From Symbiodinium sp. CCMP2592 (Eukaryota; Sar; Dinophyceae; Suessiales; Symbiodiniaceae): DNA of 64,000 bases. Location: contig CAJNDT010004913.1 in assembly GCA_905221615.1 (NCBI GenBank), forward strand, positions 372,001 to 436,000. Direction: 5' to 3'. The position numbers and the translations under genes were made by a program. Below are positions 29,210 to 61,600 of this stretch, in pieces (the stretch's first letter is position 1; each line of letters opens with the position of its first letter). Under the pieces are notes generated by a model. The model was not told the DNA's origin. It saw only the letters and a program-made list of their open reading frames with translations, and ran no database searches.

Positions 29210-32200
29210 ATGGCACTCGTCCCAGCTGACGCCGTGGGCGACGCCGCGGGCGACGCCGCGGGCGACGCCGCGGCACCGCCTGAATGGCGGTCGGTCCGCG
29301 ACTTCGCTGCAATGATTTGTGGAGCATGCACCTCTTCTGTGCACCGATCTTTGCATGGGCTTCATGCGTGGTAGTTATAGTCATGCGACGTGCAGGCGCT
29401 GGCAAAGTAAAGTGGACCTACGAGAAGGTGCAGGGCATTGCAGCGGCCATGGAGCAGCACCTGCCTGTGGCAGTCAAGGACTTGATAGAAGGCCCCAATT
29501 GGAGGGGCGGTGCCATCGTCCGACTGGAGTCGGACACTGCGCGACCGACAGCGCGTGAGGTGTCCCGCCACTACTTCCTCCTGAAGCCTTGGGTTCAAGC
29601 CCTCCCAACCCCGGTGCCGAGCGCTTATATGGTTACCGACACCCTGCTTCTGCTGAACGAGTTGCTCGGGAAGAAGCTCTTCCCCGTCCAGCCGAATGAG
29701 TCGTTGATCAACAAGGCGGCCGCGGAGGCCGTGAAGATCAAGAAGCTCCTTCAATCTTTGAGGTACCTTTTTCGATCGAGCGGCTCAATTGCAGATCGGT
29801 TCCATTTGGCAATTAGCAAAAGCACCGGATCCCAGGTAAGAACAGCCGCTTCACGAGAATCGCGGATTTGAAGCACGACCTTCGCCCGAAGGATCCGAAG
29901 TCGCCTGTTGTCCTTTGAGAGGGTTTGGCATGCATTGCTTTCTAGTTTGCCCTGCTTTTCGCTTGGAGGAGAGGACACCTGCGAAGACGGAGACGGAGAA
30001 GAAGGAAGCGGAGAAGGCGATCGAGGACGACTACCTCGCCTCGATTGCCACGGAGGCCGCTCCGATTGAGGATGGTGCTGTTGCTGGGCTTCGCTAGTGT
30101 AATGTTGCACGATCTGAGGATGAGCCCCTGCTTTCGCAAGCGTCGACACGACAGCTGGGAGATCGGTCGGAAGACGATGAGGACAGGTTGGAAATACGTT
30201 CATTTTTTCTCCCATCATGCAACCCTATGACTTGCAGGATTTCTCCGACCGGGACTCCATGTCGCTGCTCGCGGAGCTTAGCTCCGAGGAGGAGTGGAGC
30301 GACAACGATATGGACATGAAGCTCGATGAACTTGCGTGCGGGCTGCTCTTTCCGCTCGAGTGCCTCGATCCAGAGGCAACGGTGTCGTATTGTGGGGCGT
30401 CGGACATACCGACGCCGCCATCTTCGCCGAAGAGCGAGGACGAGGACGAGGCATTGTGATAGTGCATGTTGGAGTGAGCGAGTGTGCATTGCATGCATGA
30501 GGATGACACGAAGATGATTGCCAGTGGCAAGAGGCTGCCAAAGGACTGCGTCTATAAGATTGCAACCTGACATGTGTTCGTGGGATGTGCATGCATTATA
30601 GGATCCGACGGGATCCTGGTTGTGTCGGCCCCGTCCAAAAGTGGATCTAGATGAACCTATCTTCGAACCGTGGCCGGTGGTTATCGATGATGATGATGAC
30701 GATGTCAAGGATTGAACGTGCAGCGACATGTCTTGTGATGCTTGGATTTTAATTATGGCACCTGTCTCTTAAAGGAGCCGGAGCCTCCAAGCGTGCCGAC
30801 ATCATCTGCGGAGCAGGACGTTAATGTGTGCATGTTGCAGTCATGATCAACAAGTGTTTGCATGTTCCAGGATGAAGAAACCGACCTCGAAAAGGCCGAG
30901 AAGATCATGGATGCCGTGAGCTCGAGCTCCGAGAAGCCCGAGGATTTCGTGATGATCATGATTCATTCAAACAATTACTTTGTAGTCCCGTCATGTTGCA
31001 GGAGTCAAAGTGTGACCGGACGATGGGCAAGAGGAACAAGAAGCTTTCCCGAAAGAAGGCCAGATTGATTTAGAGGTTCCATAGTTGTTTCATTGCATCT
31101 TGTTGCGGGTGTACAAGGGCCAGCCGAAGATGATCGGCCCATCCGTGGCAGAGGACGCAGTAACTATGGTTCACGCAGAAGAGTTGCTTCTCGTTACGTG
31201 TTTTGGCAGGACAGCGACATCGACGTGCCGAAGGGCCCGGATTCGGCATCGGAGAAGGACGAGTGTAAGGTTGAGACGAAGAGTTATTCATAGTTGTGGG
31301 TTTTTGCAGGATGCGCAAAGCGACTCCGACATCCACAGCGATGTTGAGGGCCCCGGGACATCGTCCAAGGAGGAGGAGTGTAAAGTTCATGCACACGCAA
31401 GATTTTTTGTGGGTGCCTTGAATACTTTCGCAGGATCCGGGAAGCGACAGCAACGTGGAGTCGAAGAAGCTGGGCCGCCGCGGCCCACGTCTGAAGGACG
31501 AGTATTGAGTAAATCTCATTGGGAAAAGCTGTGTGCTATTGCGTGTTTGGCAGGATTTCGCAACTGACACCGACTGGGCCCGGGCATTTGTGGAGTCACA
31601 GAACTCACGATCGGAGAAGGACGGGTGTGGTTTATAATCTACATATAGAGTTGTTTGTATGTACGTGTTTGTCAGGATGGACCAAGCGACAGCGACATGG
31701 AGCCGAAGGGGCCGCTGGGTTCGGCATCCGAGAAGGACGGATATGAATCAGCTAGTATTATTTCTAATTGTGTGTTCTGGCAGGAAGGACGAAGCGCCAG
31801 CGATATCGAGCCGAAGGGGCCACTGGACTCGGCATCGGAGGAGGACGGATATGAATCAGCTAGTGTTACTTCTATTTGTGTGTTCTTGCAGGATGGACCA
31901 AGCGCCAGCGACATCGAGCAGAAGGGGCCACTGGACTCGGCATCGGAGAAGGACGGTTATGATACAGCTATATAGTATTATTTCTATTTTGTGTATTCTT
32001 GCAGGATGGACGAAGCAGCAGCGACATCGAGCAGAAGGGGCCACTGGACTCGGCATCGGAGAAGGACGGTTATGATACAGCTATATAGTATTGTTTCTAT
32101 TTTGTGTATTCTTGCAGGATGGACGAAGCAACAGCGACATCGAGCCGAACGGGCCACTGGAGACGGCATCGAAGAAGGACGGATATGATTCAGCTATATA

Positions 32201-33453
32201 GTGTTATTTCTAATGTTCTTGTAGGATGGACGAAGCAAAAGCAACATCGAGCCGAAGAAGAAGTGCCCACGGCGGGAGAAGGACGGATGTGAATCAGCTC
32301 TATAGTGGTATTTCTAGTCGTATGTTTTTTGCAGGATGGACCAAGCAAGAGCGACATCGAGCAGAAGAAGAAGGGCCCACGACGGGAGAAGGACGGATGT
32401 GAATCAGCTCTATAGTGGTATTTCTAGTTGTATGTTTTTTGCAGGATGGACCAGGCAAGAGCGACATCGAGCAGAAGAAGAAGGGCCCACTGGACTCGCC
32501 ATCGGACCAGGATTCGTATGCTTTTTCCATGTTGCTAACCTATAAACTCCATCCCGTCCCGCCAGGATCTGCCAAGCGACTTCGACAGCCCCACGAATCC
32601 CGAGTGGCTCCCCGAGACTATGATGGACGCAGAGGCAGCTAATCTATCAGTGTCGTTGAGGTTTTGGAACATGTCCTTCAATTGATTTGATCGAAGGGCA
32701 GCGAGGATGATCCCATGGCAGTGCCGTTCATGTCCAGCAGCGATGAGGAGTCTCAGGGCAGTTGCATAAAAGATAGTATTGAGAAACCCGTTGCATGGAT
32801 TCCTACTACATTAGTCTATTCATTCGCGACTGGGGCAGGACCCTGCCCGGAACAACAAGAAGCGGCCAAACCTCATGATGGTGAAGGCGGAGGAGCACAG
32901 CGAGGACGACGAGGCATGCAGCACGCCCACGTCGATTGCGGAGCTCATGGGATTGAACAAAGATATGATGCATGCTGATGTCGAGCCAGTTGGAGAGCAG
33001 GGATATCGAAGCACGCAGGCCCGCAAGGCGGCCGCGAAGGCCGAGGCCGCGAAGCCCGTGAAGGCCAAGGCGAAGGTGCTCAGAAAGAAGGGCAGCTTCA
33101 GACGCGTGCTCAAGCGTCGCAAGAAGAAAGCCGCCAAGAAGGCGGCCGAGGAGCCCACGGACCGTACCGATGTCATGTTTCAGAAGTACAACCTCAAGGA
33201 CCTGGCCGTGCCCAAAGACGCCTTCCCACAGGGACCAACGAAGGGACTCCACTCCTACACGATCCGCAGCCCGAGCCAGAAGTGTGCAATAGAGGTCCTT
33301 TGCAGGAATAAAGCCTTCTATGCCAAAAAGATCCACCCGGACCTGGCAGCTGACGCGGGCCACAAAGTGGGGCAAGTGGGCTGGAAGACGGTAGGGAGTG
33401 TAGCGGCTGCTTGGAAAGTGGCAAAGGACAGAGTGGGATGGGATTTGCCGTGA
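29210..33453 (+). CDS. Gene A: acidic protein of about 25 tiny phase-0 exons with a basic C-terminal domain
   Basis: ATG at 29210 in good context (GCGGCCATGGCA) opens with Gly-Asp-Ala-Ala repeats. Next comes a helical exon (about 29400-29762: KWTYEKVQGIAAAMEQHL ... IKKLLQSLR, donor GTACC). Small phase-0 exons then run at 29969-30070, 30155-30181 (27 nt), 30238-30450, 30602-30709, 30775-30816, 30871-30942, 31002-31058 and 31118-31153, followed by the repeated array (31210-32634). The last exon, 32839-33453, carries Lys/Arg-rich stretches and a domain containing SYTIRSPSQKCAIEVL and VGWKTVGSVAAAW before the stop. Nearly every border is AG|GA, AG|GC or AG|GT to AG|G. An acidic disordered middle and a basic tail suggest a nuclear nucleic-acid- or histone-binding protein, but no function is proven. 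Its first and second junctions are not certain. Confidence 0.7.
31210..32634 (+). repeat. Tandem exon+intron array inside gene A (13 exon units, mostly GA-AG introns)
   Basis: Exons at 31210-31257, 31310-31375, 31434-31496, 31554-31619, 31676-31735, 31784-31843, 31892-31951, 32005-32064, 32118-32177, 32225-32281, 32335-32391, 32445-32510 and 32566-32634. Each begins GA(T/A/C) after AG, has a length divisible by three, and encodes variants of DGPS(D/A)SDIEPKGPLDSASEK. Introns are 47-58 nt, almost all begin GA (AG|GACGG, AG|GAGTG), and they share TATGAATCAGCTATATAGT- and TTTTGCAG-like words. From 31892 to 32117 two units of exactly 113 nt are almost identical. The array is direct evidence of growth by duplication of exon plus intron. 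Confidence 0.88.
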
Positions 33454-33487
33454 CCACTACAACCTACAACAATCCTAACTACCAATA

Positions 33488-33783
<296 letters not shown>

Positions 33784-33789
33784 CACTAC

Positions 33790-35145
33790 TGTAAGATATG
33801 CTGTTCGTACTACAGTGCGATGAAAACGAGATCACCGAAACCCCATCCTTCCGGCTGTCGCTGCCTCGCTGCTATATGCACCGGCCAATCGTGTTGCGAC
33901 TTGAGAACGAAGCATGCATTTAAGATGTTCGCCTTATGGTATGTGATAAGTTGTTGCTGGGGTGCTTGGCGGTGCTTTGGCAGAGTAGATTTTGGGAGGC
34001 TCCGGTCTGCAGTGCTGCATGGCTGTGATAATACGTACGAATATGTACGCAGCTAAAACATGCAATCAGCTGGTGTCACAGCTGGCCATAAGTTGTGAGC
34101 TGTTGCCGCGTATGTGCTGTGGTGGAGCAGAGTTTGGGCTCTCGGGCTGTGCCAATTTTGCCCGACGGCCCTCTACGGAATGCAGTGCTGCAGGTGCGAA
34201 CCTACACAGACAACAAAATCAGCTAGGGTCACTGCTGGCTCGTAAGATGTCTTGCTGATGTGCCTGCTGTGCTGGGTATGAAGAAGTTTCGCAGTTTCTT
34301 GCTACGTGCAAGTGGAGGCCCGGAGGCCCTCGTGAGCGGTGCGAGCCAAGAAATTATGTACATTTCGCCATCGCAGGAATAGCAGTATTGTAGTTGTAAA
34401 TCAAGAGCTAGCGCTGTCTGTCTTCCAGCATGATTGTGTTATTGGCCGAAGGCTCGGCCCACAACGAGGGGTGGCTTCGATTGCGAAACCGCAAAACCGC
34501 AAAAAGAGCTGGTGTGCTCAAAGCTCACGGTCTGTTGTGCGTCGCATGGCTATATGAGTTGCAAGACTAGCATGAAGTTCTGTTTGATCCCGGATGCATG
34601 CCTGCAGGCCTGGCCGCAGTGGATATATGTGGACCTCGAAGATTCTGTGGAAGGACCGATCATGGAGGGCTTAGCATGAGTGATTGAGTGCATGATGCAA
34701 GCAGAGCAATTCAAGTCTGCCTTGTGCGAGGGCGTATGTGTGCATGTGCGTTGACCCATGAATGTGTGAGCCGTACAAGGCTCATGTGTATACGGAATGT
34801 CATACATGTGCTGAACCCGTGCAACCATGCATGGAAGTGGTTGTGTGCATACAGACTCATACAAACAACTTTGTACAAGATACACATGTACCATGCAAAC
34901 ACTGACGTGCTTTGGCTGTTCACCTTTGCGATGAAGCATCGTCGTAGCAAGAATGTGAAGACTTTGCGGCGGGATCGTGCCGTGCGGAAGAATCCGCGCC
35001 TTATGCAGCAATCGTGGGTGCTGCACGGTTTGGCAAAGATGGGTGCTGTGCCATTGGAGCTTTTCCTGCATTTCAATGAGTGCATCATGTTGTGCCCACT
35101 ATAACCCTCAACTCCAGTGTCGTGACTGCAGAGGTTGTATTTAAA
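33790..35145. other. Interval before the methyltransferase-like gene; possible unresolved 5' exons
   Basis: Open frames of up to 138 codons on the plus strand (34688-35104) and 215 on the minus (34711-35358) lack clear family signal. The minus frame overlaps the exons called at 35150-35495 and is therefore judged a shadow. Plus-strand segments such as 34559-34678 (CLQAWPQWIYVDLEDSVEGP) have plausible protein composition, so upstream exons of the next gene may be here. Confidence 0.3.
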
Positions 35146-35149
35146 CTGG

Positions 35150-36387
35150 TGGCTATGATGACACAAATCCAAAGCCTGCCCTGGGATGTTGCCCTGCACC
35201 ACTTCGAAACGTTTGCTGGAAGCAGAGCAGTTACACGAGCCGAGCAGCGAGCTGCTTGCTTGCAGAATAGTTAAGTCATGCTTGCCCCCACCCACAACCT
35301 CCCAAAAGCCCCTCCTTGTAAATGTTTCTCCCAGGCTGGCCGATATGCGATCCCACATGACATCGTCTACAACGAGCGCACGATGAATATCCTCAGCTCC
35401 CTGGGCTATTGCAATGCATTGTTTGAGTGCCTTCGACTGGTGCCTGGTAGTGGAAAACTCACGGCCCCTGTGTGCTCATCATGGATATTTCTGTAGGGCA
35501 CCAAGTTGCTATGGAATGCATATGATGTGCTTCCCTTACAGCTGACATGTGTGCTGTGCTGATAAGAAATCTTGAGGTCTCAATCCAAAACAATGCGACG
35601 GGCTGGCGATGTACTGGGAGACGAGTCTGTGCAGTCTGTGAAGGATGCAAACTGCATGCTGTGGCGAGTTGTTGTCCTCCTCCTAATCTGTTCGGCTAAG
35701 GGGGTGTTCTGGATATTGGAACAACCAGAGCGGTCATTGATGGAATCCCATCCTGCCATTCAGCTGCTCTTTGGCTGTGTGAAATGCTATCGAGTATCTA
35801 TTCAGATGGAAGATTTCGGCGCGAAATCCAAAAAACCAACATGGTTGTATAGTAGTGCCTTGTCCGCACGTACAGAGTCATGCTTGCAAGTGGTTCCATG
35901 TCGGAGTAGCCATGCATCCCTTGATGTTTGCTGAGATCGGAAGATACTGGAGAAGCTTCCACGATTCAAGCCACCGGTGGAAGACCTTCCCACCGAGGAG
36001 CAGAAGAAGGGATGGGAAATGTCAGTGCATTACACCGACGAGACCGGATGCAAGCGTGTGAATGGCGGCCGAAACCTGAAGGGCTCACAAGCCTATCCGA
36101 GACAGTGGGGCCCTCAATAATTGCAATTGCATTACAACCGCGGTTCGTGCGGCCCTGACAATTAACCCCGAAACCGCGATGAGTGTTGTTTCCCAGTAAG
36201 GTTTGGCATTGCTTTGTCATCCTTGCGGACGGAGTACGATGCTGAGATCAAGCAGCAGGCTTGGGCAGATCTCGCTGAGGCTCTGAAGCAGCCTTTGCGG
36301 CTTCCTGCAGAGTGTAAGATCTCTAAGAGATGGGAGCGGAAAGCCGGTTTCAAGAAGGTGTTTGCATTCTTGCGACAGCAGCAGTAG
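35150..36387 (+). CDS. Methyltransferase-like gene, plus-strand copy
   Basis: At least five exons. Exon 1 (to about 35268) carries HHFETFAGSRAVTRAEQRA, which fits the AdoMet-binding motif I pattern. Exon 2 (35334-35491) carries AGRYAIPHDIVYNERTMNIL and ends TAPVCSSWIFL. A GT-AG intron joins it in frame to exon 3 (35574 on), with FWILEQPERSLMESHP. Exon 4 (about 35940-36105) has VNGGRNLKGSQAYPRQ. The last exon (36199-36387) ends KVFAFLRQQQ and TAG. The set FAG, then CSS, then EQP recalls the motif I, PC and ENV motifs of cytosine-C5 methyltransferases, but the motifs are diverged and activity cannot be claimed. A second copy is on the minus strand at 56036-57310. Confidence 0.5.
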
Positions 36388-36389
36388 CT

Positions 36390-37043
36390 GCTATGTGTGC
36401 AGCATGCATATAATTGAGTGCAGGCATCATGTGCAGGGGAATGGGGCCGAAAAAGGATTCCACAGGTTGCCGGTGAGCATGCATGTTGATTTGCAATACC
36501 AGCTCTATATGGATCAATATGCGATCATGGATGCTGGCTTGCAACGCAGGATCATGCCGCCGTTCATATTGAAGCCGGGCGGTCTGGTATTGGCCAAATG
36601 CCGTGCTCCAGTCGAAGAAGGCCATGCATGGGTGCCATGCATGTGTGTGTGTGTCAAACAAGAGAGTCAGTGCTGCTTTTCTGCTCGGTTTGTGAACCGG
36701 TGCCTGGGGGAGCAGAGGGGAGAGAAGAGGTGAGGGCAGAACGCAAAGGGAGAAGGGAGATGGGAATGAAGACCGAACCGGAGAGCGCGAAGGGAAAGAG
36801 AGCGGAGAGTGGAGAGTTCGCAGCGGACCAAAACCACCGAACAAAAAAAACAAAAAACCGAACGAAACGAAAACGACGCAAAACCACCCCAGCCGCTGGT
36901 GTGATTTGGCGTGGACGCTGGTGCGATTTGGCGTGGAACGTCGTGATTTGTATTTCGACCCCAAATCTCAACCAATGCCCCCCCAGAACAGCCAGAACTC
37001 GAGACGAAAGAGCGCAACTTCGGCACTTGATGGAAGATGACAG
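36390..37043. other. No supported gene; purine-rich stretch
   Basis: 36700-36890 is GA-rich on the plus strand, which opens long basic/acidic frames on both strands. No splice-consistent coding was seen. GCATGCATGGGTGCCATGC near 36623 is a local palindrome. Confidence 0.35.
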
Positions 37044-37515
37044 CCGTGATTTGTAGCAGCCGCTGCCGTGATTTGCAAAAGATATGAACCGCATGCTGTG
37101 ATATTGTAGCAGCCGCTTCCGTGATTCGTGATTTGTAGAAGCCGCTGCCGTGATTTGTGGAAGCCGCTGCCGTGATTTGAAAAAAGCCGCTGCCGTGATT
37201 TGTAAAAGCCGCTGCCGTGATTTGCCGCTGCCGTGATTTGAAAAAGCCGCTGCCGTGATTTGCAAAAGCCGCTGCCGTGATTTGCAAAAGCCGCCGCCGT
37301 GATTTGTAAAAGCCGCTGTCGTGATTTGTAAAAGTCGCCGCCGTGATTTGTAAAAGCCGCTGTCGTGATTTGTAAAAGTCGCTGCCGTGATTTGTAAAAG
37401 CCGCTGTCGTGATTTGTAAAAGCCGCCGCCGTGAGTTGTAAAAGCCGCTGCCGTGATTTGTAAAAGCCGCCGCCGTGATTGTAGAAGCCGCCGCCGCCGT
37501 GATTTGCAGCAGCTG
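37044..37515 (+). repeat. 22-bp minisatellite, about 21 copies
   Basis: The unit is GTGATTTGTAAAAGCCGCTG plus CC or TC. Early copies (37044-37230) are more varied (GTAGCAGCC, GAAAAAAGCC); later copies are regular. As 22 is not a multiple of three, the repeating peptides seen on the minus strand in several frames are artefacts. Confidence 0.95.
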
Positions 37516-37660
37516 CTGCTGTGATATGATACATCATGGATATATTATATCGTATGCAACATACACATCTATAGTTTATAGGATTCCTATATATATTCTG
37601 CATTTGGTGCCACAGGTGCATGCAGTAATATGCACACATATGTACATGCATGTGCATGCA

Positions 37661-37714
<54 letters not shown>

Positions 37715-38130
37715 CCTATACCTGCACACATAATGTATATATAGTGTATGTATATGTATATAACATGCATGCATGTTGTCTTGTCTGTCTCTCTGCATGC
37801 AGTCTCTCTCTGTCTTTGTACATATAAGCCAAGCCAACCCCCCAGCCCATGCGCCCAGCCCATCCATGGGCAAGTCCGTCTGTCCATATATGTCATTCTG
37901 TCTTATAACGTATACAGCCCACCCAAGCCAGCCCCAGCCCGCCCAGGCTATATGGAGAGTCTGTCTGTCTGTCTGTCTATCTGTCTGTGTCCTCGTCTCT
38001 CTCAGACACCTTGAGATGCAAAGCAAGGTTCCATGAAGTGAGAGCACATGAAGCTTCGATGCATTCACCTTGTGCTGCATGGGGCGCTTGCTTTCAAGCT
38101 TTTGGTGGCTCCTGTTTTGTGAAGTTAATC
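37516..38130. other. Microsatellite-rich spacer
   Basis: (TA)n at 37663-37694, (CA)n at 37695-37709 and (TGTC)n at 37961-37988. No gene recognised. Confidence 0.6.
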
Positions 38131-38141
38131 TTTGAGCTGCC

Positions 38142-40835
38142 ATGGCAGCCGGCGATCCTGTGACTCATAGGGTTTCAACGAAACGCCAGCAGTCACGAGA
38201 CGACAGCGAAAGCCGGCCGAAGAAGAAGGCAAGGCCGTCGAAGCTTGAAGTGTCCCGGCACGAAAGACTCATGGTCTCCTTGCAGAAGTGTGCTACTAAG
38301 AGTAGCCTCGCAGCCCCTCCTGTTGCGATTAAGAAGGGCCGAAAAGAACAGCAAGAAACCGAAGTCGCAAAGGAAAAGAAGGAAAGCAAGGAGAAGAAGG
38401 AAGTCAAAGAGAAGAAGGAAAGCAAAGAGAAGAAGGAAAGCAAAGAGCAGAAGGAAAGCAAAGAGCAAGTCAAAGAGAAGAAGGAAAGCAAAGAGCAGAA
38501 GGAAAGCAAAGAGCAGAAGGAAAGCAAAGAGAAGAAGGGAAGCAAAGAGAAGAAGGAAAGCAAAGAGCAGAAGGAAAGCAAGGAGAAGGAGGAAAACAAA
38601 GAGAAGAAGGGAAGCAAAGAGAAGAAGGAAAGCAAAGAGCAGAAGGAAAGCAAGGAGAAGGAGGAAAGCAAAGAGAAGAAGGACAGCAAAGAGCAGAAGG
38701 TCAGCCAGGAGCAGGGAGGAAACAAGGAGAAGAAGGGAAGCAAAGAGCAGAAGGAAAGCGCAGAGCAGAGGGACCACAAGAACAAGAAGGACAGCAAAAG
38801 GGGAGTGCAGGAGGCAAGCAAGGAGCAGAAGGAAAGCAAGGAGAAGAAGGCAAGCAAAGAGAAGAAGGAAGACCAGACGGCCAAGAAGCGGAAGAAGGAA
38901 GGCACAAGCAAGCAGGACGTGTCTGAGGAGCAGGACCGTGGACCGTGCACATTGCAATGGTGTCTTATAGTTTATGTAGATATGCAGTTTGTGCGTGGTG
39001 CATGAGTATAGGACGATGAAACGGCGGAAGCCTTCGATGAGGTGGCATTCCTGGAGGCGGAGCTTGCAGCTCGGGAGCTAGCGGAAGCCCGAGAGGACTC
39101 GGAGGTTTCAGATGGCGAGGCACCCGAAGCTTCGGAAGAAGCCAAGGACGATGAAGAGGAGGACGAGCCAGAGCAGGAGGAGACCAGTGCTCCAAGGACC
39201 CCAGGTGCCGGCGCTTTGGACAGTGACGAGGAGCTGCCTCAGTCGCAAGATTGTGTCTTGGACGAAGAGGACATGCAGTCCGACTCGTCAAGCGACCAGT
39301 CGGAGGAGAACGTGGACGGCGACTCCTTGAGTGACGCTGAGGACACAAAGGCGTTGAGTACGGCCGTGGCGACTGAGCCCGTTCGGAACAGCTCCCTAGA
39401 TTGCATATATACATGCAAGCTTGCTGTTTCAGTTGCCGTGCGATATTGCGAGTGCATTTAAGGTGCCACACACAGGAAGGAATGGGCGGTTTTTGATCGT
39501 GCCGTTAAGAACCGCCAGAAGTTCCCCGTCGCTCTGAGCAACTATGCGAGCAAGTCCAAGACGGATTTGTTTGCTGCATGGCTCGATTGCAATGGCAATT
39601 GGGACGAGCTATTTGGCTGCATGAGTTGTCTTTGGGTTTGCAGTTTGCTTGCGTGAGTTTGCGGTTGTATGGAGCAAGACATGTTTCGAAGGGTGCTGCA
39701 ATGCTGTCAGGGTGAAGTTGGTTATGGAACGCAAGCATGAAAAGAAGAGCCTAAATCGCCAGGATGTTCTTGCTATTCAGGGAAAGGACTTGAAGACAAA
39801 GTACGCAGACGAGGCAGAAGACTTATCCGTTTCCGGTTGCACAGTTCAGGCTGAACACATTTGCCAGGCAATGTACAAGCAAGTGATTGCAGCAAGAAAA
39901 GCCGAAGGCCGCTGGTACAAAGACAAGGACTTCCCCGACAACGAAGATGTGACTAGGTTTCATCCATGGGAGTTCTGAGCCGTGTTGTGCTGTTGTTCTT
40001 GCTGTGCATGTTATCATATATGCATTTGCTGAGGAAGCATGGTATTACATGCCGAAGGGCCACCTGCTGCGGCTTGACAATGCCACGAGCGAAGAACAAA
40101 AGTTGTCTGTCGAACAAGGTATGGATGAGGACTTGGCGAAGGTACTGGAGGAGAACAACCTGCTTCAGGCAGGCACCTTGCCTGCGGTACACGCAGCCAC
40201 TGAGGCTGGCGAGAAGGCGCTTCTGGCCTTCTTCGATGAGGGTGCTGCTGTGGCAAAGCGAACACCGAAACCCAGGAAGGACAAGGAGTCAACGGAGGAT
40301 GCCAAGGAGATGGAACCGAAGACCGTGCGCCAGTTGCTTGAATGCTTTTGTTGAGTTACTTCAATGGTGTCTGCGCTGCTGCTTGTGCGTGGGTATTTAT
40401 GCTAAGGCTGGTGGCAGAAGCGAAGCCGGAGATCCTGAAGGATGCTTCGAAAGCTCGGGAAACCTCCCTCACCCTGAACAACCTCAACTACGGTGAAAAG
40501 TTGGCCGAACAGCTGCTGAATTACTCCAGGCAGATGGAGCTGACCTACAAGAGGCTAGCTGAGCTGGAGGCAAAGGAGAGCACCGAGGATGCCGAGTTGA
40601 ACAAGTTTCTGAAGTATGTGGCCAAGAAGAAGCCATGGTTCCAGCAAGCCCAGGCTCACTGATCTTGCGTTGCTGCGGTGTGCGAGTTTTGTTGGATCTG
40701 TGTGCGGAACACATGCTTGCTAAGGCAGCAGCAAACGGCCTGCAGTCTGGATTGAAAGCAAAGAAGAAGAAGGCAGGAGCCAAAGCAAGCGCCAAAGGTG
40801 CTGCTGCGAAGCCTGCCGCAAAAGCGGCTGCTTGA
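38142..40835 (+). CDS. Lys/Glu-repeat protein with dinoflagellate C-terminal domain and Lys/Ala tail
   Basis: ATG at 38142 follows GCTGCC. Exon 1 (38142-38933, 264 codons) has a nuclear-type basic start (RPKKKARPSKLE), then about 500 nt of KESKEKKESKEQ repeats. Exon 2 (39012-39341, 110 codons) is strongly acidic (DDEEEDEPEQEE). Further exons give KEWAVFDRAVKNRQKFPVAL, NYASKSKTDLFAAWLDCNGN, DVLAIQGKDLKTKYADEAED, KAEGRWYKDKDFPDNED and WYYMPKGHLLRLDNATSEEQ, then helices (LNNLNYGEKLAEQLLNYSRQ). The tail is KAKKKKAGAKASAKGAA to TGA at 40833. Junctions AG|GA at 38934 and 39342 and AG|GC near 40656 fit the GA/GC usage of gene A; the junction at about 39476 does not keep phase and is unresolved. Likely a nuclear, nucleic-acid- or chromatin-binding protein. 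The middle domain is shared with gene X (52046-54840). Confidence 0.65.
38385..38920 (+). repeat. 15-nt purine repeat encoding KESKE units
   Basis: The unit AAGGAAAGCAAAGAG recurs more than 25 times with AAGAAG/CAGAAG variation. It is in frame throughout and almost free of pyrimidines on the plus strand except the C of AGC and CAG. Long Leu/Ser/Phe frames on the opposite strand are shadows. Confidence 0.95.
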
Positions 40836-44277: not shown

Positions 44278-44315
<38 letters not shown>

Positions 44316-44943: not shown

Positions 44944-44978
<35 letters not shown>

Positions 44979-45205: not shown

Positions 45206-45224
45206 AATTACATTGGCATGCATA

Positions 45225-47136: not shown

Positions 47137-47146
47137 AACTCCACAA

Positions 47147-48293: not shown

Positions 48294-48296
<3 letters not shown>
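47253..48296. other. No other supported gene around repeat copy 4
   Basis: Short minus-strand frames (47284-47502, 47706-48127) have no family signal but could include upstream exons of the gene at 45.8-47.1 kb. An isolated GGTTTAGGG word lies at 47352. Confidence 0.3.
47743..47935 (-). repeat. CGTGAGCCCC repeat, copy 4 (longer)
   Basis: GGACGGCGTGAGCCCCTGGC at 47745, a second GCGCCGTGAGCC at 47781, then ACCAACCCTGCCTGGAAATG and TCCAGGTTGGGTCG near 47878-47921. Same layout as copies 1 and 2 but with about 90 bp of extra sequence in the middle. Confidence 0.65.

Positions 48297-48362
<66 letters not shown>
48297..48362. repeat. (TA)n / (CA)n microsatellite
   Basis: TA runs at 48297-48330 and 48341-48361 around a short CACACACA. 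Confidence 0.95.
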
Positions 48363-48363
<1 letters not shown>

Positions 48364-49566: not shown

Positions 49567-51087
49567 TCAAGTTGGTCCAAGAAGCATAGCAAGGCAGATT
49601 ACCGGAAAACGCGTATCGGCATGAGGGGTATCATCAGGCCAGGGTTGCCCTTCTTCGTCATGTTTTTTGCGTAGCCATTGTCCAACATCACGAGAAGGCA
49701 TTGTGCTGTGCTTTGCAGCAAGTTCACAACAGTTGCCAAGCCACATAGTTATTATTCGACCATTGTAGCCTTTATGGGCCATATGCGCACCGTGCTTCTC
49801 AGGTTTCCAAACCTGGCATCAGTGTTTCAACAAAACGGATGCACTTAGATACTGCTGTATGGTGCCATGCCACCCTGCAACAAGCCCGTCATGGATGCGA
49901 CCCAAGGAACAAAGTTGGGAACAAACTTTTGTTGCGAACACTTGAGCCCCCGTTCTCGTTGGAAGGTCTTGAAGTCCCGGAAGGCCACCACAAGTAACTG
50001 GTGAAGAGAGTTCATCTCCGGACTCGGGTCTCCGAAGTAGCCACTCTCAATCAGGTACATCCTAAGCTCCAACATCCTAATATCATTGCTTCAGTAACCC
50101 AAAAACGGAGTAACCCCCAAGTCAAAGAATCACTAAGTTGTTGCGGCACGTGAGAATTCAGAATACTCAAATGCCCGGGATCAAAGTTGAGCCTGTAGCG
50201 TCCTGGGCCAAACCCAGGTTTATATTGTGAAGACTGCAATGGCATAGCATCGTGAAGTGGAACGACCGTAAGCCCAACAACGGACCTTTGTTGTTTGACT
50301 CTGTAAATAATCTTTGCGGGTTCAATCCTACTTGCAACAGAAGACTCGGTAGTTGCTGCTAAGTCACAGACATGATTATCCTGCGTACCCTCAACGACAA
50401 ACTGATTATGGGAAATCTCTGTTGCCTGCCAAGATGGATTGTCGCTGACATCGGTCATCGAGTGCGCCGCATTGGTGTGATTCTCAGCATCGCACCGCCA
50501 GCAGATAAATCGAGTTTTGTAGTATCTGTTCAACCGCCATGTTTGCCAATGATACTCCCAATCACCCTTGATTTGGGTGACACAAAACTTCCGATTCAGC
50601 TGTGCCCCTTCCCACGTAAAACCATCAAAGGCTTTGTTGAGGGATTTCACAACAGCCAGGTACAGCGGGTTGTGACTCTTCCATCCCAAGCTACGGTCGC
50701 CATTCAAATTCCACAGCAGGAAATGACTCATCCGGGTTGACTCCACAATACCAAACTCAAGAAGCAGCCCGTCACTTTGGATTGATCGAACCCCGTGCCA
50801 TATCTTGCCGTGTCCCCATAGAGTGTAAGCGGAATATGGGACCCGTCCAGATTCTCGTCTGAGGCCCAGGGCATGAACTCTTTGCAATGTTTCCAATATT
50901 GTGCTAAAGTAGAAGGCGGTATATTGATGCCCACGACGTCAAACAAATAGGCCAATATGCGGTCCGGAAGTAGCACTGGCACTTTGACAGTAACCTCCTC
51001 CAAAGAGTCCTCTTTCTTCTTCAGTGTAGTCTCCATGTATACCGGTTCCTGTTCAGCAAATGAACGACTAGAACACAGACCTAACAT
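49567..51087 (-). pseudogene. Putative CMC/Plavaka-like transposase, minus-strand copy, probably broken
   Basis: Minus-strand blocks align with the gene at 41.3-44.0 kb in the same order. KVPVLLPDRILAYLFDV and IPLTLYGDTARYG match IPVLLPHEIFAEL and LVHFDG. TQIKGDWEYHWQTWRLNRYY with FICWRCDAEN matches YGFRGDQKARRE with LCDQC. LIESGYFGDPSPEMNSLH and HKGYNGRIITMWLGN match the WIKKEYK and KAAQVKILIWG regions. Near 50745 the frame changes within a few bases (LVLW in one frame, ESTRMSHFLLW in the next) with no room for an intron, so a frameshift is likely. No counterpart of the late Glu motif (SESYMGKIK) was found downstream, so the 3' end seems lost. The weak D-x-H stretch (LNFDPGHLSIL, near 50160) may be the D-x-MH equivalent. 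Confidence 0.55.
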
Positions 51088-52045
51088 ATAATATAGTGTT
51101 CAAGAATATCTAAGATTTATACCCGTTCAGCCCTAAGACTAAACTTAGAACCGATGCTCAAGCTGCTAATATAACGTAGAACTTACTGTTGGGTATCCCC
51201 CACCACGGGCAACTTCACGGTCCGCTCAAAGTCTCGAGAGTTGTTGCGGCCACTGAAGGATCCGAGCTTGCGAAGCTATCGTGGCACCAGACCAGAAGCG
51301 TCCTGGGCTGACTATGTGGGATTCGGGTTTGCAGGATTCTACAAGAGCATAGCAGTAGACTGTTCATGTGTGCCGTGGCACACGCAATGAAGACTTGGCG
51401 CTTCTCATCTCTCGATCGATTGAGCTTTCCTTGGGATGGCATCAGGGTTTAGGGTTTAGGGTTTATTGGGGGTTTCAGACTTCCGAACTGATAAGTTTCA
51501 GCGACGGCAGAGGCCACATTATCGATCATATCATCTAGCAGCTCAGAGTTCGTCGGGGCTGCTCCGGAAGGAGTACCTGCGGGGGAACCGTGCGAGGCTT
51601 CAGGCTACGAACACTTCGCTGCACAAGTCCCATCAGCCAACGGGTGAAGTAACAGTTGCACTTGTTTCCAGGCCCGCCGTGTACAGTCTGCACATCTAAT
51701 GCATGCATGATGCTAAGGAACTCCCCTTCCTAGTCCATGCGAGCAAAGCACAAACTCTTCTAAACGGCAGGGTTCGCATGCGAGCTCGCTGCTCACCTTT
51801 CACCTTAAGGCCTTCATTGGGTCAAGCCAATGAAAGATTCATCGATTTAGAAATCTGCCGAGTCTCGGCCCTGAGCACATCTTGCCTCCCACGCGGAGTC
51901 TCGCTTATGCCCCAACAAGATGCCTAGATGGACATTAGGGGACCCTAAGATAAAATTATTTATAAATTTGAGGTAGGGTTGCACTTTCGTTAAGGACTTA
52001 TGTAATGATGAGGCATGTAGCGGCACCGTGTTCCGGATGCACTCC
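51088..52045. other. Spacer between minus-strand genes
   Basis: GGGTTTAGGGTTTAGGGTTTA at 51446-51466 is a three-unit telomere-like word. Otherwise no supported feature. Confidence 0.4.
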
Positions 52046-54840
<2,795 letters not shown>

Positions 54841-56035
54841 CTTAGCGCTTGAAGTGGTGTGCATGCACAAATCACAGCCCACACAGCCCCAAATACAAGA
54901 TTGCATACTTACACAGGATCCAGCCCGGTGGTGGAGGAACCGGGGGAGAACGCTGCACAGTCTTCCTTCACACCCTTGGCGGCTCTGGCCGCCCTGTCGC
55001 GGGCCTTTTTCAACACTTTTTCCACATCACAACTGACTGCCATGAGCCTGAACCCACACTACAGTGCGAGCACGATCGCTCCAAGAGCTCGGCTTGATCC
55101 TGATGGGTGCAGCATGCGCACACATGATGCCCCACGCGCGCTTCACACTTGCGTTCCGGCACCTAGAGACACACGCAATTCATAGTGATTTTTCAAGGCA
55201 TATAGTATCACAGTTATTCGGGTGGGTTTCACAGTTATTCGGGTGTGTTTCACGCTATTTTCACGGTAGTTTCACGCTAGTGTTTTTTCACGCTGTCTTG
55301 AGGTTTTGCTGTTGAGTTTTGAAGGACAATGAAAGTAGCTAGCTGGTTTTCTCTCCGCGCGATCGCCCCTTTGCCGCGAAGGTTCTTAGATCTGCGATAT
55401 TCAGTATGTACAGAAGAGCCTTTTCACAGCCACTCTCCTGAATCTCTCTCAGTGTGTGCTTGCCTTATTACATGTCCCAAATGAGAGCTGTCTGCTGCAC
55501 TGGAGGAAGCCTTCAGGGAAACTGAAATACCGGCCGATATCGGCCAGTAGCAATCTCTTCAGAGAGAAAATCAGCTACAGGGCCTAGGTTGGCGTGTTTC
55601 CAGCCATACGGTGGCATCAAAGGCGACTTCCTTTCGCCGGCCTAGCGAAAGCGAGTCAACGGAAGACAATCCCCCAACACTTGAATAATGGAAGAATATC
55701 TAAGACCGGGCCTCTGCCAAGTCCGCAACGGCCGGTCGCAGAAAGCATTTTCGGTTGACCTGGGGGGATAAACTGTCACACGGGATTGCAGGATAAGGGC
55801 TCTAAGCAATTGGGGGACGGGCAACGAAGTCCACGTGATGATCGGCTATAGCACGACCAAAGTCAGCAGGGTAGGTCTGGGTCTGCTTGAGTTTGGGCCC
55901 TCCTGTCCTCAGAAGAAGGAAGACATAAACAGGTATTGCACCAGACGATACTATTCTGCAAACACGAGAGAAGACAGACACACTCTGATTAGGATTCGGG
56001 CACTAGTTCCCGGCGACCTCCTTTGTCAAACCTCC
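54841..56035. other. Spacer between gene X and the methyltransferase-like copy
   Basis: TCACAGTTATTCGGGTG(G/T)GTT occurs twice near 55207-55250, a short tandem repeat. No convincing coding frame. Confidence 0.4.
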
Positions 56036-57310
56036 GCTTGACAACCCCCTTGGAGCAAAGGCCAAGCTCCGCCTTCCTGGCCCGCGTGAGCTTCTTGTAC
56101 ATCTTGGGCAGCCAAGGCCTGCAGCTGCAATATGTTGGTAACCAAGAATTGGAAACGTTCAGGAGCTACCAAGGTTCTTGCGGGGTTCCCACCAGAATCG
56201 TCGGCTTCATAGTAGAGTGCCCGTAGACTCCCATGCAACTTGGCAAGGCATGGGACAAGTGCCAGCATAATGTAGCAAATTCGCGGCAACATATTTCAGA
56301 GGTGCATGCTGCAATAAGGCTGGGACAACCTGACGAGTAAAATGGGGATGTAATGCTTCAGCATCTCGCGGATGTACAGGAAATACGGGAGGTTCGTGAG
56401 TAGCGAAGAGGAGGGTTGTTCGATGTACCAATGCACCGACCGCATCGATGCTAAGACGCACAACAGGAGAGCGCGAGTCGCTAACCTGGGCAGAGATAGT
56501 CGAGGTTTTGACATTCGCGGCTGTCTGGTGGTTTGGGGTGACATCTATGGGCTCAAAGCTTGAAGTGCACACTTGCGCACCATGTAATATAATGTTATTA
56601 TTAATCATATATTAAGATTAGTTCAATCTATTGGGTTGGGGCTCAATAGTGACACAAGATCTTAGTAATAGCTGATATAGCACGTATTGTGGAATTAGCT
56701 GGAACCTGAAGTTCGAGAGGATAGCACATTTGGGGGGTTGATAATGTATTTTTGCATACAAGCTGATTTCCAAGCATCGGTTGGAATTTGATAGGGATTG
56801 ATTGGTTACCGAGATGCGACACCGAAATTCTAATGCTACCGAAGGACACATTTGCCTCCTTCACGTATTTGTACTTGACGGTACCGAAGATCCGGCGTAC
56901 CGATCTTCCCGACGTCTTACGGTTCGTCCAGACGAAGCTTGAGCAGGGAAGCCCTGCTGCTAGAAGACCTTTTGGGGCCAACCTCAGCACTTTCGCCATC
57001 GCCCGTAGCAGTCCCAACCTTAGAATCAGACAAAGCTACATTTGCTTCATTACTAGGGAGCCTGTGTAACTAGGGACCTTGCACCGTCAGGAGGTTGTCG
57101 TCCTCTCTCGATCCCATATCGAAAAAGTCCCTAGGCAATGCACATCAGCGGACAGTACTGTCGAAGAAATATCAGAGTAAGACCGGGGCGATTTATATCC
57201 CAAGTTGCCTTAGGAATACGGACACACACGGATGACCCCTTACTTGTTTCATCTGAGATCCAAGCTAAACCCTGCTTCCACAGATCGCCGGCCGCCGAAA
57301 AGATCCAGAC
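56036..57310 (-). CDS. Methyltransferase-like gene, minus-strand copy
   Basis: Exons in transcription order match the gene at 35.1-36.4 kb. LDLFGGRRSVEAGFSLDLR (57252-57310) resembles AdoMet motif I. RAMAKVLRLAPKGLLAAGLP and CSSFVWTNRKTSGRS (about 57005-56860) carry the PCSS motif. LATRALLLCVLASMRSVHWY and IEQPSSSLLTNLPYF (about 56495-56345) carry the EQPS motif and start at a CTGCCCAG|G acceptor. RPWLPKMYKKLTRARKAELG and LCSKGVVKRRFDKGG (to about 56036) form the end. The PCSS/EQPS pair is better preserved here than in the plus-strand copy. The 5' exon is the least certain, since it is short and ends at a stop without an obvious donor. Function as a methyltransferase is a hypothesis from motif order only. 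Confidence 0.5.
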
Positions 57311-57850
57311 AAATCAAGTCCTAAGCAACCCAGCACATTTCGCTACCAACATTCCAAGTCCCGCGAGACCGGGCACTAGGGGGAGCACACGGCAGTCGTT
57401 CGGTTGTTCTGCATTTTGCGCGATATAGTCGGCAAGGTGTAGCCTGCAGCCAGGGCATTACGGGTAGAGGGTGTGGATTTCAGGAAGCATTTGCTCTTGA
57501 TTTGATGCATTCGAGCAGCAGGACACTCGGGAAGCCCATGTAAAGCAAGGCCAACCAAGTGTCACGTGTTATCGCGACTTCGCTCAGCATCCAAAACATA
57601 TTGGCTGGATCCACGAAAACCCAGCACTGACAAACCCTGTGGAGCCACGAAACCTAGCCACCAGGCATCTCAGCACTGTAATGAACAGAAGCATGCAATG
57701 CCAAGCTCGAGATTCACACCTGTTGCGCAAGCATCAGAGCACTTTTGCTAGGTCCATGAAGCAGCTTCTCAGGCAGTGCAAGGTATCGTATCGGTGATAG
57801 CAGCCATGTCGTAGAACTACTCCCAGTCAGCAGCAAGACAGGCAGCACTC
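57311..57850. other. Spacer between two minus-strand genes
   Basis: No repeat and no clearly coding frame. A small minus-strand frame (57376-57558) may contain an exon but cannot be joined with confidence. Confidence 0.3.
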
Positions 57851-59397
57851 CACCTAGGCAGCTTCCAAAGCGACATGAAAAGCCAGACTCGACTCCTCAA
57901 CCTCAAAAAAATTTGTGAGAACCTCTGGGCGGGAGGCGCGGTCTCGAGATCTTCGAAGTTCTGCCAGCCCAGGCTGAAGCCATTCTTTGCATTGACCTCG
58001 ATGAAGGGATATTGGAGTTTTAAAGTTTGGGCTGAAGGTTTGTAGGTCGGGAGCTTCAAAGTCCGTGTTGAAGTTCTCGTTCATTGTTGCCGTTCGCTGC
58101 GGGGTAGCCTTGTTCACGTAGAAGTGTCCATTGTAAGGCCCGAACCTGAGCGAGGGTTCTGTCATTTGGGAGTTTGCTCTGTTTTCTTCGAGATGGCTTT
58201 TCATAGTAAGGCTTCGGCACGATTCCGATTGGAGATGGTTTGCCATCGGATCGAAGTGTCCAGGACCTAGCAATTTAGATACCTAAACAAATAAATTGTT
58301 TCGAAAGATAACATTCGTTGATGACAAGCTCGGGTTGCCACCCCTTCGGCCCGTCAATAACGTCCTCACTCAGCACCATACGTGGGTCCTTTCTGGCCAG
58401 AGCTCGAAGGCTTGGAACCCACCTTTGCTTGACCTGCGACGGGGCAACAACATCTTTACAGATCAACAACCCTAATGGCAAAGGCATCTACTGTGCATAT
58501 ATATAGTACGTATGCTTGGGAACCTTGGCTCGCGGGTCTTTGGCTGCTGGTTTCTTTTTGGGCGCGTCGTTTGACTCTTCCTGCCCTTCCTCTTCATTCT
58601 CCTCCTGCCCTTCATCTTCATTCGCCTCCTGTCCTTCCTCTTCATTCTCCTCCTGCCCTTCATCTTCATTCTCCTCCTGGCCTTCCTCTTCATTTTCCTC
58701 CTGGCCTTCCTTTCCTTTGGTATCCTCCTCTTCAGGATCCTTCTTTGGGGCTTTCTTCTCCCGGGCACCCTTGGGCTGCTTGGAAGCTGGGCGTTTCATC
58801 GGAGGGGGGTCCCGTGACTGTGTCCGCCCCCGGCCTCGGCCTCTGCCTGATCTCCCTCGCCCTCGCCCCCTGCCTCTGTTCCCCCGGCCGCGTGCAGCCG
58901 AGTCCTCTGACTGCGGATCATCGTCATCCACGGCCTCTCCCTTCGCTCTCTCGCGAAGGGCTCTGCGCGCTTTCTGCTGGGCCTAGCCGGAAAGCTAAGA
59001 ATCACAAGTTGGAGGATTCGTGCAAAGCTAGCACGAGAGTACTGACACAGCCTGCACAGCCAAGTTCGGATCATCCCCTTTGTGCTCCTTTAAAAGTTTC
59101 TGGGCTTTCAAGATCGATTTCTTCGGCAATGAAGGCACCGATGCAGTCTTTGCCTTTTCATCCTGTATGCATATGCATGCTAAAATTGCAGAACAGGCAG
59201 TTTCATCAATTGAAATCAGCAAGTGTATTACACGAAGACTTAGCTGGAGATCAGTCCTTGAAAGTGCCACTTTTTTTTGCAGCTTCATCGTTGGATTCAA
59301 TATCTTCTCCAGGAACACAGTCATCAACTTCACGAGGGCACTCCTCCTCCCCACCCTCTCCTTCTTGAGCCTGGTCGCAGGCGTCTGCGTCCGTCGC
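57851..59397 (-). CDS. Gene Y: acidic, RG- and Glu-rich protein with conserved Trp/Pro-rich region
   Basis: Minus-strand exons with exact codon phase: 59397-59257 (47 codons, ATDADACDQAQEGEGGEEEC, donor AAG|GACTG), 59162-59052 (37 codons, DEKAKTASVPSLPKKSILKA, donor CAG|GCTGT), 58982-58524 (153 codons, AQQKARRALRERAKGEAVDD, an RGRGRGR stretch, then EEGQEENEDEGQ repeats, donor AAG|GTTCC) and 58433-about 58312 (VKQRWVPSLRALARKDPRMV, EDVIDGPKGWQPELVINE). Then about 58268-58063 (LGPGHFDPMANHLQSESCRS, FGPYNGHFYVNKATPQRT) and a last block near 58000-57851 (NAKNGFSLGWQNFEDLETAP). GA, GC and GT donors occur in one gene. RGG-like repeats suggest RNA or DNA binding. The family is recognised only as a dinoflagellate multicopy type. 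Start and stop are not fixed. Confidence 0.6.
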
Positions 59398-59400
59398 CTG

Positions 59401-59402
59401 CT

Positions 59403-59454
<52 letters not shown>
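59401..59454 (-). repeat. (CTG)18 on the coding strand at an acceptor of gene Y
   Basis: The CAG run on the plus strand is CTG on the minus strand and ends ...CTGCTGCAG|CAG just before the first recognised exon of gene Y. It can supply both polypyrimidine-like sequence and the AG acceptor. The frames it opens (poly-Cys, poly-Ala, poly-Gln) are probably not translated. Confidence 0.85.
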
Positions 59455-59456
<2 letters not shown>

Positions 59457-60259
59457 AACACTCCCAGGGTTTACACTAACTATCTCGGTTTCAAACTTCA
59501 CCCAATCAAATTATTCCCAAATTTCCAAGTCCGGAAACCCTAAGGCCCTAAGAGCTGAGTTGGATATATTTCAATGGTTGCTATCTTCTCTCATTTCTAA
59601 GTCAGCAAAACTTCACAACCCAAATTCCCGAAACCCGCAACCCTGAACCTAAGATTCTTTCTTGGTCCTACCCCCCCGACTTAGCAGCCAGCAGACGAAA
59701 TGGTGGTAGTAGCGGGGGTAGGAGTACAGGTAGGAGAAGAAGGGTTCGTAGTATTAAGACGGATAGGAATATAATAGAAAAATCATGACCCAAATCATTG
59801 TTGAAGGCATAACAACCGAAGTCATTCGAAACCGTAATCCAAAACCCTAATACCTCAACCCTAATAATGCCTAACCCACTTGATCCAGAATGACACAACC
59901 AAGCTCTAAGTTATGGGCCTTAAACCGCACAGCCCTAAGCCCGTGCTTGGGGTTTGAGTGTTCAGGGCCTGAAAACTTATTGGGGTCTTTAGGGTTTCCG
60001 AATTTACTTAGCGAGTTTGGGCAGGTTTTGGCGGTCTTCGGGACTCGACTTCGGGGTCTTTAGGGTCGTGGTTGAAAGTGTTCGGTCTCAGATCGGGTTT
60101 GGGCGGGAGGCTTTGCAGGTTCGGATCAACTAGACTTAACGTACCGGCTTTAGCTGTCATCTTGTAGCACACAAAAGCTCTCTGTCGGCACATGATGCTC
60201 CAAAACCTAAGCCTTAAGTTCATAGAGCTTGAAACTACTACCCTTATGACTTCGATTTC
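59455..60259. other. Gene-poor spacer with CCCTAA words
   Basis: CCCTAA and TTTAGGG words are scattered (59538, 59850, 59865, 59990). No convincing exon. Confidence 0.35.
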
Positions 60260-61600
60260 TTATGTTCTTAGTAATTTAATTAAGGGACAGGGACGACTGG
60301 AAACATAATTAACAGGATCTGTGTAGGTTCCAACAGGTGGGGCCCAAACTGTATTTTCCAAGAAGCCAAATAGCAAATCCAGCACCCTAAACCGTTTCGT
60401 TTCAGCCAGAAGAAAATCGAACTGATCCCCCGGCGACCTCCATGTCTGCATCTGCGCTCTTCTGTTTCGTGAGCTCCTGCGGAATGATTTTGGTTGACAT
60501 GCTGCTAGCATAACTTCGAGGGAGTCCTCTTTCTTCGCTTGGATAACTTGCTTCAGCTTGGCGAACTTGTCATGGTTGGGGCCTTTCCTGGTCGGCAGAA
60601 GTAGAACATCTATCATATCTGGATATTTCATGCAGAGAGTCGCCTGGTGTTCCGGTTGCGCCAAGAACGGTCGCAGGCCCAGGAGGCAAAGGACCGAAGA
60701 ACTCCAGCTTCTTCCTCAGCCCATTCCTGGGATTGCACGTTTGACAAAAGGCCTTATGATTTGTTTCAAAAAGGATTCTCAGGTTGCGACTTCCAACTCA
60801 TCTTTCGGCAATGGTGTGTCATGGAGGCGGAAGTGAGAACTGCTCCAGGCTATCGCAGCCTTTCAAGGAAACTCACAGAATGAAAAACATATGTGGCAAG
60901 GTTCACAGGCCTCCGTTTCCTTCTTGGTTGGCAACTCGCCAGCGAACGTCGCACAATAATTCAAGATGATGGGATAATTGTGGTCGCTGCAAACCTGGAC
61001 CGGAAGTCAAGAAAACCGAGGAACCTCGAGATCATCTGAATCAATACTGGGTGTAGCCTGCGCTTCGGAGATCGCCTTCTGTTCCACATCGAGGAATCGG
61101 AAGCGGAATTTCGCCTGCGGAAACCATAACGTTGCTAGTGGCTCGAAAGGTTAGCTTCAGAGTCTCCCTGCCTCAGGATCTTCCTTTTTGGAAACCTTTG
61201 TCAACCTTCGCTTCAGCGCTTCAATCCGTTTGTTCACGTAACCCGGCATCAGGAGGTCTTTCAGAAATTCCTGTCTCAATTGATCAGTTTGTGGCATCCA
61301 GCCGCAGAGCTCAAAAATGCAAGAACCGACAAGGTATCCCCGTGTCCTGCAATAGTGCGACTCGTGCCGGATTTGGTTTGCTGTCGGGCATGGCTCATGA
61401 GGAAAAAAACTGCTATATGATGCTTCGGACCTAGCCGGTCCTAGTACCTTGATGGCCAGCAGGTCGCACAACGATTTGAATCTGAAGCTTTCACAGCTGA
61501 TGATTGCAAGCCCTCCCATGCGAAGTGGTGGACGGAAGCACCTCTGTCCAGTTCACCGATTTCCTCCAGACCTGGGGAAAGTGGACAGGAATATTTGCGG
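60260..61600 (-). CDS. Gene Z: fragmentary minus-strand gene, charged protein
   Basis: Clear exons are TDQLRQEFLKDLLMPGYVNK and RIEALKRRLTKVSKKEDPE (about 61290-61172, donor GAG|GCAGG), AKFRFRFLDVEQKAISEAQA and TPSIDSDDLE (about 61113-61024, donor GAG|GTTCC) and VCSDHNYPIILNYCATFAGE (about 60987-60900, acceptor GTCCAG). Each is in phase 0 with the next. Lower down, 60664-60420 (LLLPTRKGPNHDKFAKLKQV, QAKKEDSLEVMLAACQPKSF) looks coding but competes with another frame. I do not recognise a function. Its position, upstream of the Y, methyltransferase-like, X and transposase-like series, and its exon style suggest it belongs to the same array. Both ends are uncertain. Confidence 0.4.

Follow-up and report, generated by a model that had tools for sequence, protein, structure and literature searches.

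Two large, gene-rich DNA transposons of different families lie convergently in a 64,000-nt stretch of the genome of Symbiodinium sp. CCMP2592, where each was inserted separately; we hold this, the family assignments included, with high confidence. The stretch (the window) is C4877:372001-436000 within a 1.1-Gb assembly, and the strain is given as S. tridacnidorum in PMC8045281. Very probably, a transposase gene is accompanied in each transposon by a second gene whose product resembles a cytosine-C5 DNA methyltransferase, though a very divergent one, and the family 1 transposase is of the RAG1/Transib/CACTA kind (CMCT clade). We established ends, target duplications, empty sites and copies elsewhere for both families; for family 1 we also established that gene content and order are conserved and that four of the five genes are under purifying selection, and obtained predicted folds. 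The activity of the encoded enzymes and transposition itself we infer.

Limits, target sites and copies of the two transposons

Transposon 1, the element with the plus-strand genes, had the same limits against three near-identical copies. Copies were located by a six-frame genome search with the product of its transposase gene, D, in which the best 77 of 1072 candidates were scored and counts are lower bounds. Long segments on C11, C510 and C5140 were 98.3-99.6% identical to the window, and in all three the block of identity began at 28180/28181 and stopped at 45380-45383, with flanks unrelated to those of the window. The near-identical copies suggest that this transposon was mobile recently. 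The features of its ends were as follows.

28182..45378, + strand: transposon 1, 17,197 bp, with the same identity limits against the copies on C11, C510 and C5140
28180..28181, no strand: left target-site duplication, TA; its 2-bp size was set by the empty sites of the C5140 copy
45379..45380, no strand: right target-site duplication, TA, the matching dinucleotide outside the right end
28182..28195, + strand: left terminal inverted repeat, CCGTGAGGCTCCGA, from inverted-end comparison
45365..45378, - strand: right terminal inverted repeat, CCGTAAGGATCCGA, read inwards from 45378; 12/14 positions match the left end
44613..45154, + strand: ten subterminal direct repeats of a 19-bp unit, AAGTAAACGCC, at the right end only

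The target duplication of family 1 is 2 bp, because the joined flanks of the C5140 copy with a single TA matched empty sites: at 40/40 scored places (of 242 candidates) the match covered 298/298 bases with no net gap, the best at 99%. The flanking dinucleotide was identical on both sides of six copies, being TA in the window, C11, C5140, C36 (whose more diverged right end was read by eye) and C5297, and CA in C510. The copy on C1997 had CA at its right end, the sole end read, and neither end of the ~95% identical copy on C1807 was found at up to one mismatch. Some copies were rearranged internally. A 438-bp part of the D gene region (the counterpart of window 42072-42509) was inverted in C510, and in C4939:99346-117137 and C4198 ~15.5 kb separated the second from the later D exons, a large internal insertion common to both contigs.

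Transposon 2, which carries the minus-strand genes, was delimited by comparison with C3868 and C2214. An inverted-end search of the sequence around the minus array returned mostly pairs of TA microsatellites, with the best pairs at the true ends, and a long DNA query of this side was dominated by a common repeat, so that even the window itself was missing among the matches listed (best 37 of 3842 candidates scored). The element at C3868:245306-258919 (13,614 bp) lies in an unrelated flank and shares both limits, with 98% identity over the last 0.93 kb and 91% over the first 0.15 kb of the ends compared; C2214 shares the 5' end.

48364..62015, - strand: transposon 2, 13,652 bp, with ends CCCTCCTCTTCC... 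and ...GGAGGTAGTGGG and limits common to C3868
48360..48363, no strand: low-side target duplication, TATA, which lies within a TA microsatellite and is weak alone
62016..62019, no strand: target duplication TATA, high side, weak alone
55805..57035, - strand: methyltransferase-like gene with PCSSF and EQP motifs, from profile matches
53108..54590, - strand: Lys/Glu-rich region, where a profile of the Lys/Glu-rich gene of transposon 1 gave no credible match
49570..51099, - strand: transposase-like gene, from profile matches and copies elsewhere
45381..48359, no strand: spacer that is part of neither transposon; identity to copies ends at 45380-45383 and at 48351

The duplication size of family 2 was set at 4 bp by the C3868 insertion, which has TTTA on both sides. 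When the flanks of C3868 were joined with a single TTTA, 44/45 non-self matches crossed the junction (best 40 of 3155 candidates scored), some of them ungapped (C4929, 113/113), and all 44 were a common short repeat around that junction. This target is a very common repeat of ~110 bp (query ~123-235; 3155 candidates) that matched both strands in several places. Rejoining the target in the window itself gave a 511-aa minus-strand open frame, which is uninformative because 500 aa are already open without the join. For the transposase-like product of transposon 2, C3868 (98%) and C5257 (94%) carried near-identical copies and C917 a partial one. Compared with the C3868 copy, the frame in the window is disturbed near 50.73-50.75 kb, and therefore the window copy may be defective.

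An earlier, sequence-only reading had proposed a gene-rich DNA transposon or a selfish gene cassette. That idea holds for each array, as each has its own ends, duplications and empty sites, although the limits (28182-45378 and 48364-62015) differ from those it had placed.

Gene content and its conservation

Transposon 1 holds five gene regions, of which the third is the methyltransferase-like gene and the fifth is transposase gene D. The conserved genes at 29.2-44 kb are all on the plus strand, as the earlier reading had it.

29386..29763, + strand: gene A, conserved exon, no known domain; 85% amino acid identity to the C5297 element and 41% to C36
31673..32477, + strand: 113-bp tandem array in the gene B region, resembling repeated units of mini-exon and intron; the splice reading is inferred
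32884..33444, + strand: gene B, basic protein, conserved exon, no known domain; 55% amino acid identity to the C36 element and 44% to C5297, with saturated synonymous divergence (dS)
35155..36384, + strand: FAG/CSS/EQP gene, C5-cytosine DNA methyltransferase-like (profile matches, fold of a family member, nonsynonymous-to-synonymous ratio (dN/dS) 0.11-0.19); conserved exon parts 35155-35247, 35335-35490, 35596-35853, 35938-36105 and 36202-36384
38136..40656, + strand: Lys/Glu-rich gene (KE), with a repeat-rich open reading frame at 38136-39002 and dN/dS 0.15-0.16; conserved exon parts 39480-39608, 39712-39825, 39883-39951, 40037-40324 and 40414-40656
41368..43952, + strand: transposase gene D (similarity, profiles, fold of family member P0002, catalytic residues); conserved exon parts 41368-41742, 41907-42107, 42117-42188, 42284-42388, 42540-42959 and 43440-43952

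The tandem array comprises ~7 units of 113 bp, each like a ~60-bp coding exon plus intron (CAG|GATGGAC...). The database proteins P0001 and P0003, relatives of the transposase from Symbiodinium records, carry the name 'nipblb', which is probably a misannotation; in P0003, from S. microadriaticum, a single gene model joins KE and D.

The genes of family 1 have been kept together while its subfamilies diverged. The elements on C36 and C5297 are collinear with the window element, and in codon comparison with them (C36/C5297) the dN/dS of D was 0.16/0.19, that of the methyltransferase-like gene 0.11/0.19 and that of KE 0.16/0.15. The value for gene A was 0.28 against C5297; synonymous sites were saturated for gene A against C36, where a stop codon falls inside the aligned stretch, and for gene B. 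Low dN/dS in diverged subfamilies means that at least four genes were retained together by selection.

The left end is tied to the D gene. The 19-base left end occurred 18 times exactly in the genome and 21 times at up to 2 mismatches, and the control (the same pattern read backwards) occurred 11 times at up to 2 mismatches. A D gene lay on the same strand within 20 kb of 14/18 exact left ends, 13 of them at 12.7-13.2 kb; the chance expectation for this pairing, from 20 close D loci, is 0.003. The exact left ends include two subfamilies whose D exons are only about 61-72% identical to those of the window. By these comparisons, the copies of transposon 1 are young (~99% identical) and the architecture is old, with the exact left end and gene order shared across diverged subfamilies.

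The methyltransferase-like gene is likewise linked to D. In 28/36 D loci it was found on the strand of D, at most 20 kb upstream, including 11 of the 16 more diverged loci, where it lay 7.9-10.6 kb upstream; none of the 36 D loci had it in reversed order or on the other strand. The eight D loci lacking it upstream are on C1092, C4198, C2280, C5169, C1398, C1849, C1923 and C4552, and those on C1092 and C4552 begin just 0.9 and 10.1 kb inside the contig on the upstream side. What weighs against a fixed pairing is that 35/63 methyltransferase-like loci have no downstream D gene among the D loci found; most of these 35 are more diverged, and any partner may escape the D search. Some loci are probably haplotype duplicates, so these counts are not independent events. 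Eight of the unlinked methyltransferase-like loci (C484, C856, C1897, C5329, C4889, C3979, C1223 and C4050) share one identical score and may represent another multicopy element.

Two gene types are recognizable in both arrays, and their homology between the arrays rests on profiles. The FAG/CSS/EQP profile, made from relatives of the plus gene, matched the minus array at 56646-57035 (E 1.3e-11), 56299-56544 (1.5e-8) and 55805-56002 (3.1e-5). The transposase profile matched at 50054-50938 (8.1e-7) and weakly at 50731-51099 (0.01) and 50170-50358 (0.03), and the matches were collinear with the plus genes. For genes A, B and KE, profiles built from 3-4 sequences each gave nothing credible in the minus array, with no match for A up to E 10 and best E values of 6.3 for B and 8.3 for KE, so the shared charged or Lys/Glu-rich character may be composition only. 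Comparison by blastp of the stop-to-stop fragments of the window of at least 40 aa found no match between the arrays at 1e-4.

The four-gene order that the earlier reading had seen in both arrays is therefore retained for the methyltransferase-like gene followed by the transposase-like gene and was not confirmed for the charged and Lys/Glu-rich genes. The pairwise homology it expected was borne out by profile for those two types, and not for the others or by blastp. Both types face inward in the same transcription order, and the arrays do converge on the center. From the sequence evidence, we conclude that the arrays represent two related but distinct families inserted ~3 kb apart, and that the earlier reading was right in kind and wrong in detail.

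Predicted proteins, possible roles and alternative explanations

The product of D is predicted to be a RAG1-type transposase. The predicted fold of family member P0002 matches the catalytic core of RAG1/Transib, and 6b40 (BbRAGL) is among the structural matches listed; here and for the methyltransferase-like fold, results hold among the matches listed. In an 11-row alignment, counting rows with a residue at the position, the acidic triad was D180 in 9/9, D289 in 8/8 and E515 in 9/10, and between the second D and the E were C309 and C312 (7/7 each), H490 (10/10) and H494 (9/9). We compared these features with published CMCT criteria: a D-D-E triad, C(2)C and H(3-4)H between the second D and E, duplications of 2-5 bp, and CA..TG ends 'in most cases'. 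The duplications of 2 bp (family 1) and 4 bp (family 2) are within the CMCT range and depart from the 5 bp of Transib and RAG elements. CA..TG termini are absent, the ends being CCGT..ACGG (family 1) and CCCT..GGG (family 2). The source makes CA..TG non-obligatory, so we file the element of D as 'CMCT-like, lineage unplaced'.

The earlier label of CMC/Plavaka-like transposase thus stands as CMC-type for the plus array. Plavaka in the strict sense (TGT..ACA with 2-bp, or CATCA..TGATG with 2-3-bp duplications) is not supported, as the termini differ and no Pfam family was matched above cut-off; 11 D family members gave a few sub-threshold Pfam matches, none of them to a transposase. We also rejected retrotransposon cargo, since the nine products scanned, which cover part of the reading frames of the element, showed no reverse transcriptase domain and inverted ends with short target duplications are present instead.

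The product of the third gene is filed as a 'C5-MTase-like fold' with predicted activity. The predicted fold of a family member is that of a C5-methyltransferase, and 50/50 structural matches listed are C5 methyltransferases. The catalytic Cys (motif IV) was present in 34/34 rows and the Glu (motif VI) in 33/35, assigned by motif order. None of 36 members matched PF00145 (C5-methylase) at E 0.1, and a sequence-profile search of PDB with the family returned nothing relevant (best E 0.15). Methyltransferase surveys based on PF00145 would overlook this family.

We propose that the transposase would bind the ends, excise the element and join it to a new target, TA or CA in family 1 and 4 bp long in family 2; in family 1 a RAG1-type enzyme would do the cutting and pasting. 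Accessory DNA-binding factors would be supplied by the Lys/Glu-rich and basic proteins, perhaps acting on the repeats close to the right end. The methyltransferase-like protein might methylate element DNA, so that a new insertion would take on the heavily CG-methylated state of the host; for this role we see at least as much reason for doubt as for belief. Alternatively, methylation could tune transposase binding. More broadly, and only tentatively, these elements may belong to an ancient and diverse dinoflagellate superfamily that joins a RAG1-fold transposase, a C5 DNA methyltransferase of a class not yet described and several accessory genes, methylates its own copies, continues to move and accounts for many 'unknown' intron-bearing genes in dinoflagellate genomes.

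The most serious alternative is that the methyltransferase-like protein lacks methylation activity, being a structural or regulatory derivative, or acts on RNA, which we judge somewhat improbable though well worth keeping in view. Motifs I and VIII deviate from their classic forms, and all 36 members lack the C5-methylase Pfam match. Against this, Cys, Glu, Lys and Gly are near-invariant, purifying selection is strong, and every structural match listed is a C5 methyltransferase.

The remaining alternatives concern the elements as a whole. That the array genes are host genes recently captured and carried by the transposase as non-autonomous passengers is very unlikely: DNA transposons do capture host genes, but three subfamilies have the same genes in the same order, the methyltransferase/transposase pair occurs in more, and selection is purifying wherever measurable. 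Slightly less plausible still are ordinary host genes in unidirectional arrays meeting at a convergent boundary, with the repeats being segmental or haplotype duplicates. Dinoflagellate genes do lie in very long unidirectional arrays (PMC11071213), the genes have introns and the assembly contains many near-identical contigs; however, identity ends at exact inverted ends with unrelated flanks, target duplications are present, and multicopy repeats hold empty sites. Least credible of all is the earlier suggestion that the arrays are old copies of a single composite unit, here taken as the product of an old inverted duplication; this would account for the common methyltransferase-like/transposase order but is contradicted by the different ends and duplication sizes (2 bp and 4 bp), the separate near-identical full-length copies and empty sites of each array, and the lack of detected homology for the other genes.

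Related systems and surrounding sequence

The combination of a transposase and a DNA-methyltransferase-like gene in one DNA transposon is unusual. A search of the open-licence PMC literature for dinoflagellate DNA transposons with a methyltransferase or a RAG1-like transposase listed no title or abstract opening that describes this element. The two transposons resemble the CMCT clade in the RAG1/Transib-like fold predicted for family 1, short inverted ends and 2-bp and 4-bp duplications; they differ from it in their termini, there mostly CA..TG, and in having ~5 genes, no Pfam match, a dinoflagellate host and a methyltransferase-like gene aboard. ProtoRAG and RAG1-RAG2 transposons combine a RAG1-core transposase with a RAG2-like partner and make a 5-bp target duplication; a RAG1-core fold transposase with partner genes is common to both systems, whereas the partner here is methyltransferase-like.

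Some fungal DNA transposons, including members of the CMCT clade, carry a TET/JBP dioxygenase (PMC12730594). They too bring a cytosine-modification enzyme and a transposase together, but the oxidase there helps remove methylation and the enzyme here resembles a methylase, so they would be, by analogy, the opposite solution to self-methylation. Within Symbiodinium, PMC5890265 describes SymbioLINE-Dnmt and SymbioDIRS-Dnmt3, retrotransposons with mostly intronless DNA methyltransferase (DNMT) genes found via PF00145, and reports that most CGs in Symbiodinium DNA carry methylation and that the retrotransposon DNMTs can methylate CGs de novo. A DNMT thus travels aboard mobile elements there as well, in retrotransposons rather than in DNA transposons with a DNMT-like protein missed by PF00145. 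Because those enzymes methylate CGs de novo, a DNA transposon with its own methylase would be a parallel solution.

If our interpretation is correct, a DNA-transposon route is added to the Symbiodinium mobile elements that carry DNA methyltransferases, and RAG1/Transib-type transposases gain a lineage that is distant from animals and unusually rich in genes. The fixed ends, duplications and empty sites of these families would make transposition and self-methylation directly testable.

Other features of the window were minor. A KDZ transposon was rejected, as the 25 KDZ (PF18758) matches listed genome-wide include none inside the window; several of those 25 have open frames of >1500 aa. No Rfam RNA matched at gathering scores across the window. 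Left of transposon 1, the region at 22600-28260 is GC-rich with long overlapping open reading frames on both strands, and those scanned had no Pfam match above cut-off. In the spacer, minus-strand open reading frames at 45814-47151 matched two Pfam families below cut-off, zf-C6H2 at E 0.00088 and HMUDK_hel, the helical domain of 5-hmdU DNA kinase, at E 0.0038. The first 22 kb of the window, in the contig interior, contains AAACCCT tandem runs at 13084-13308, 15833-15967 and elsewhere, which we take to be telomere-like.

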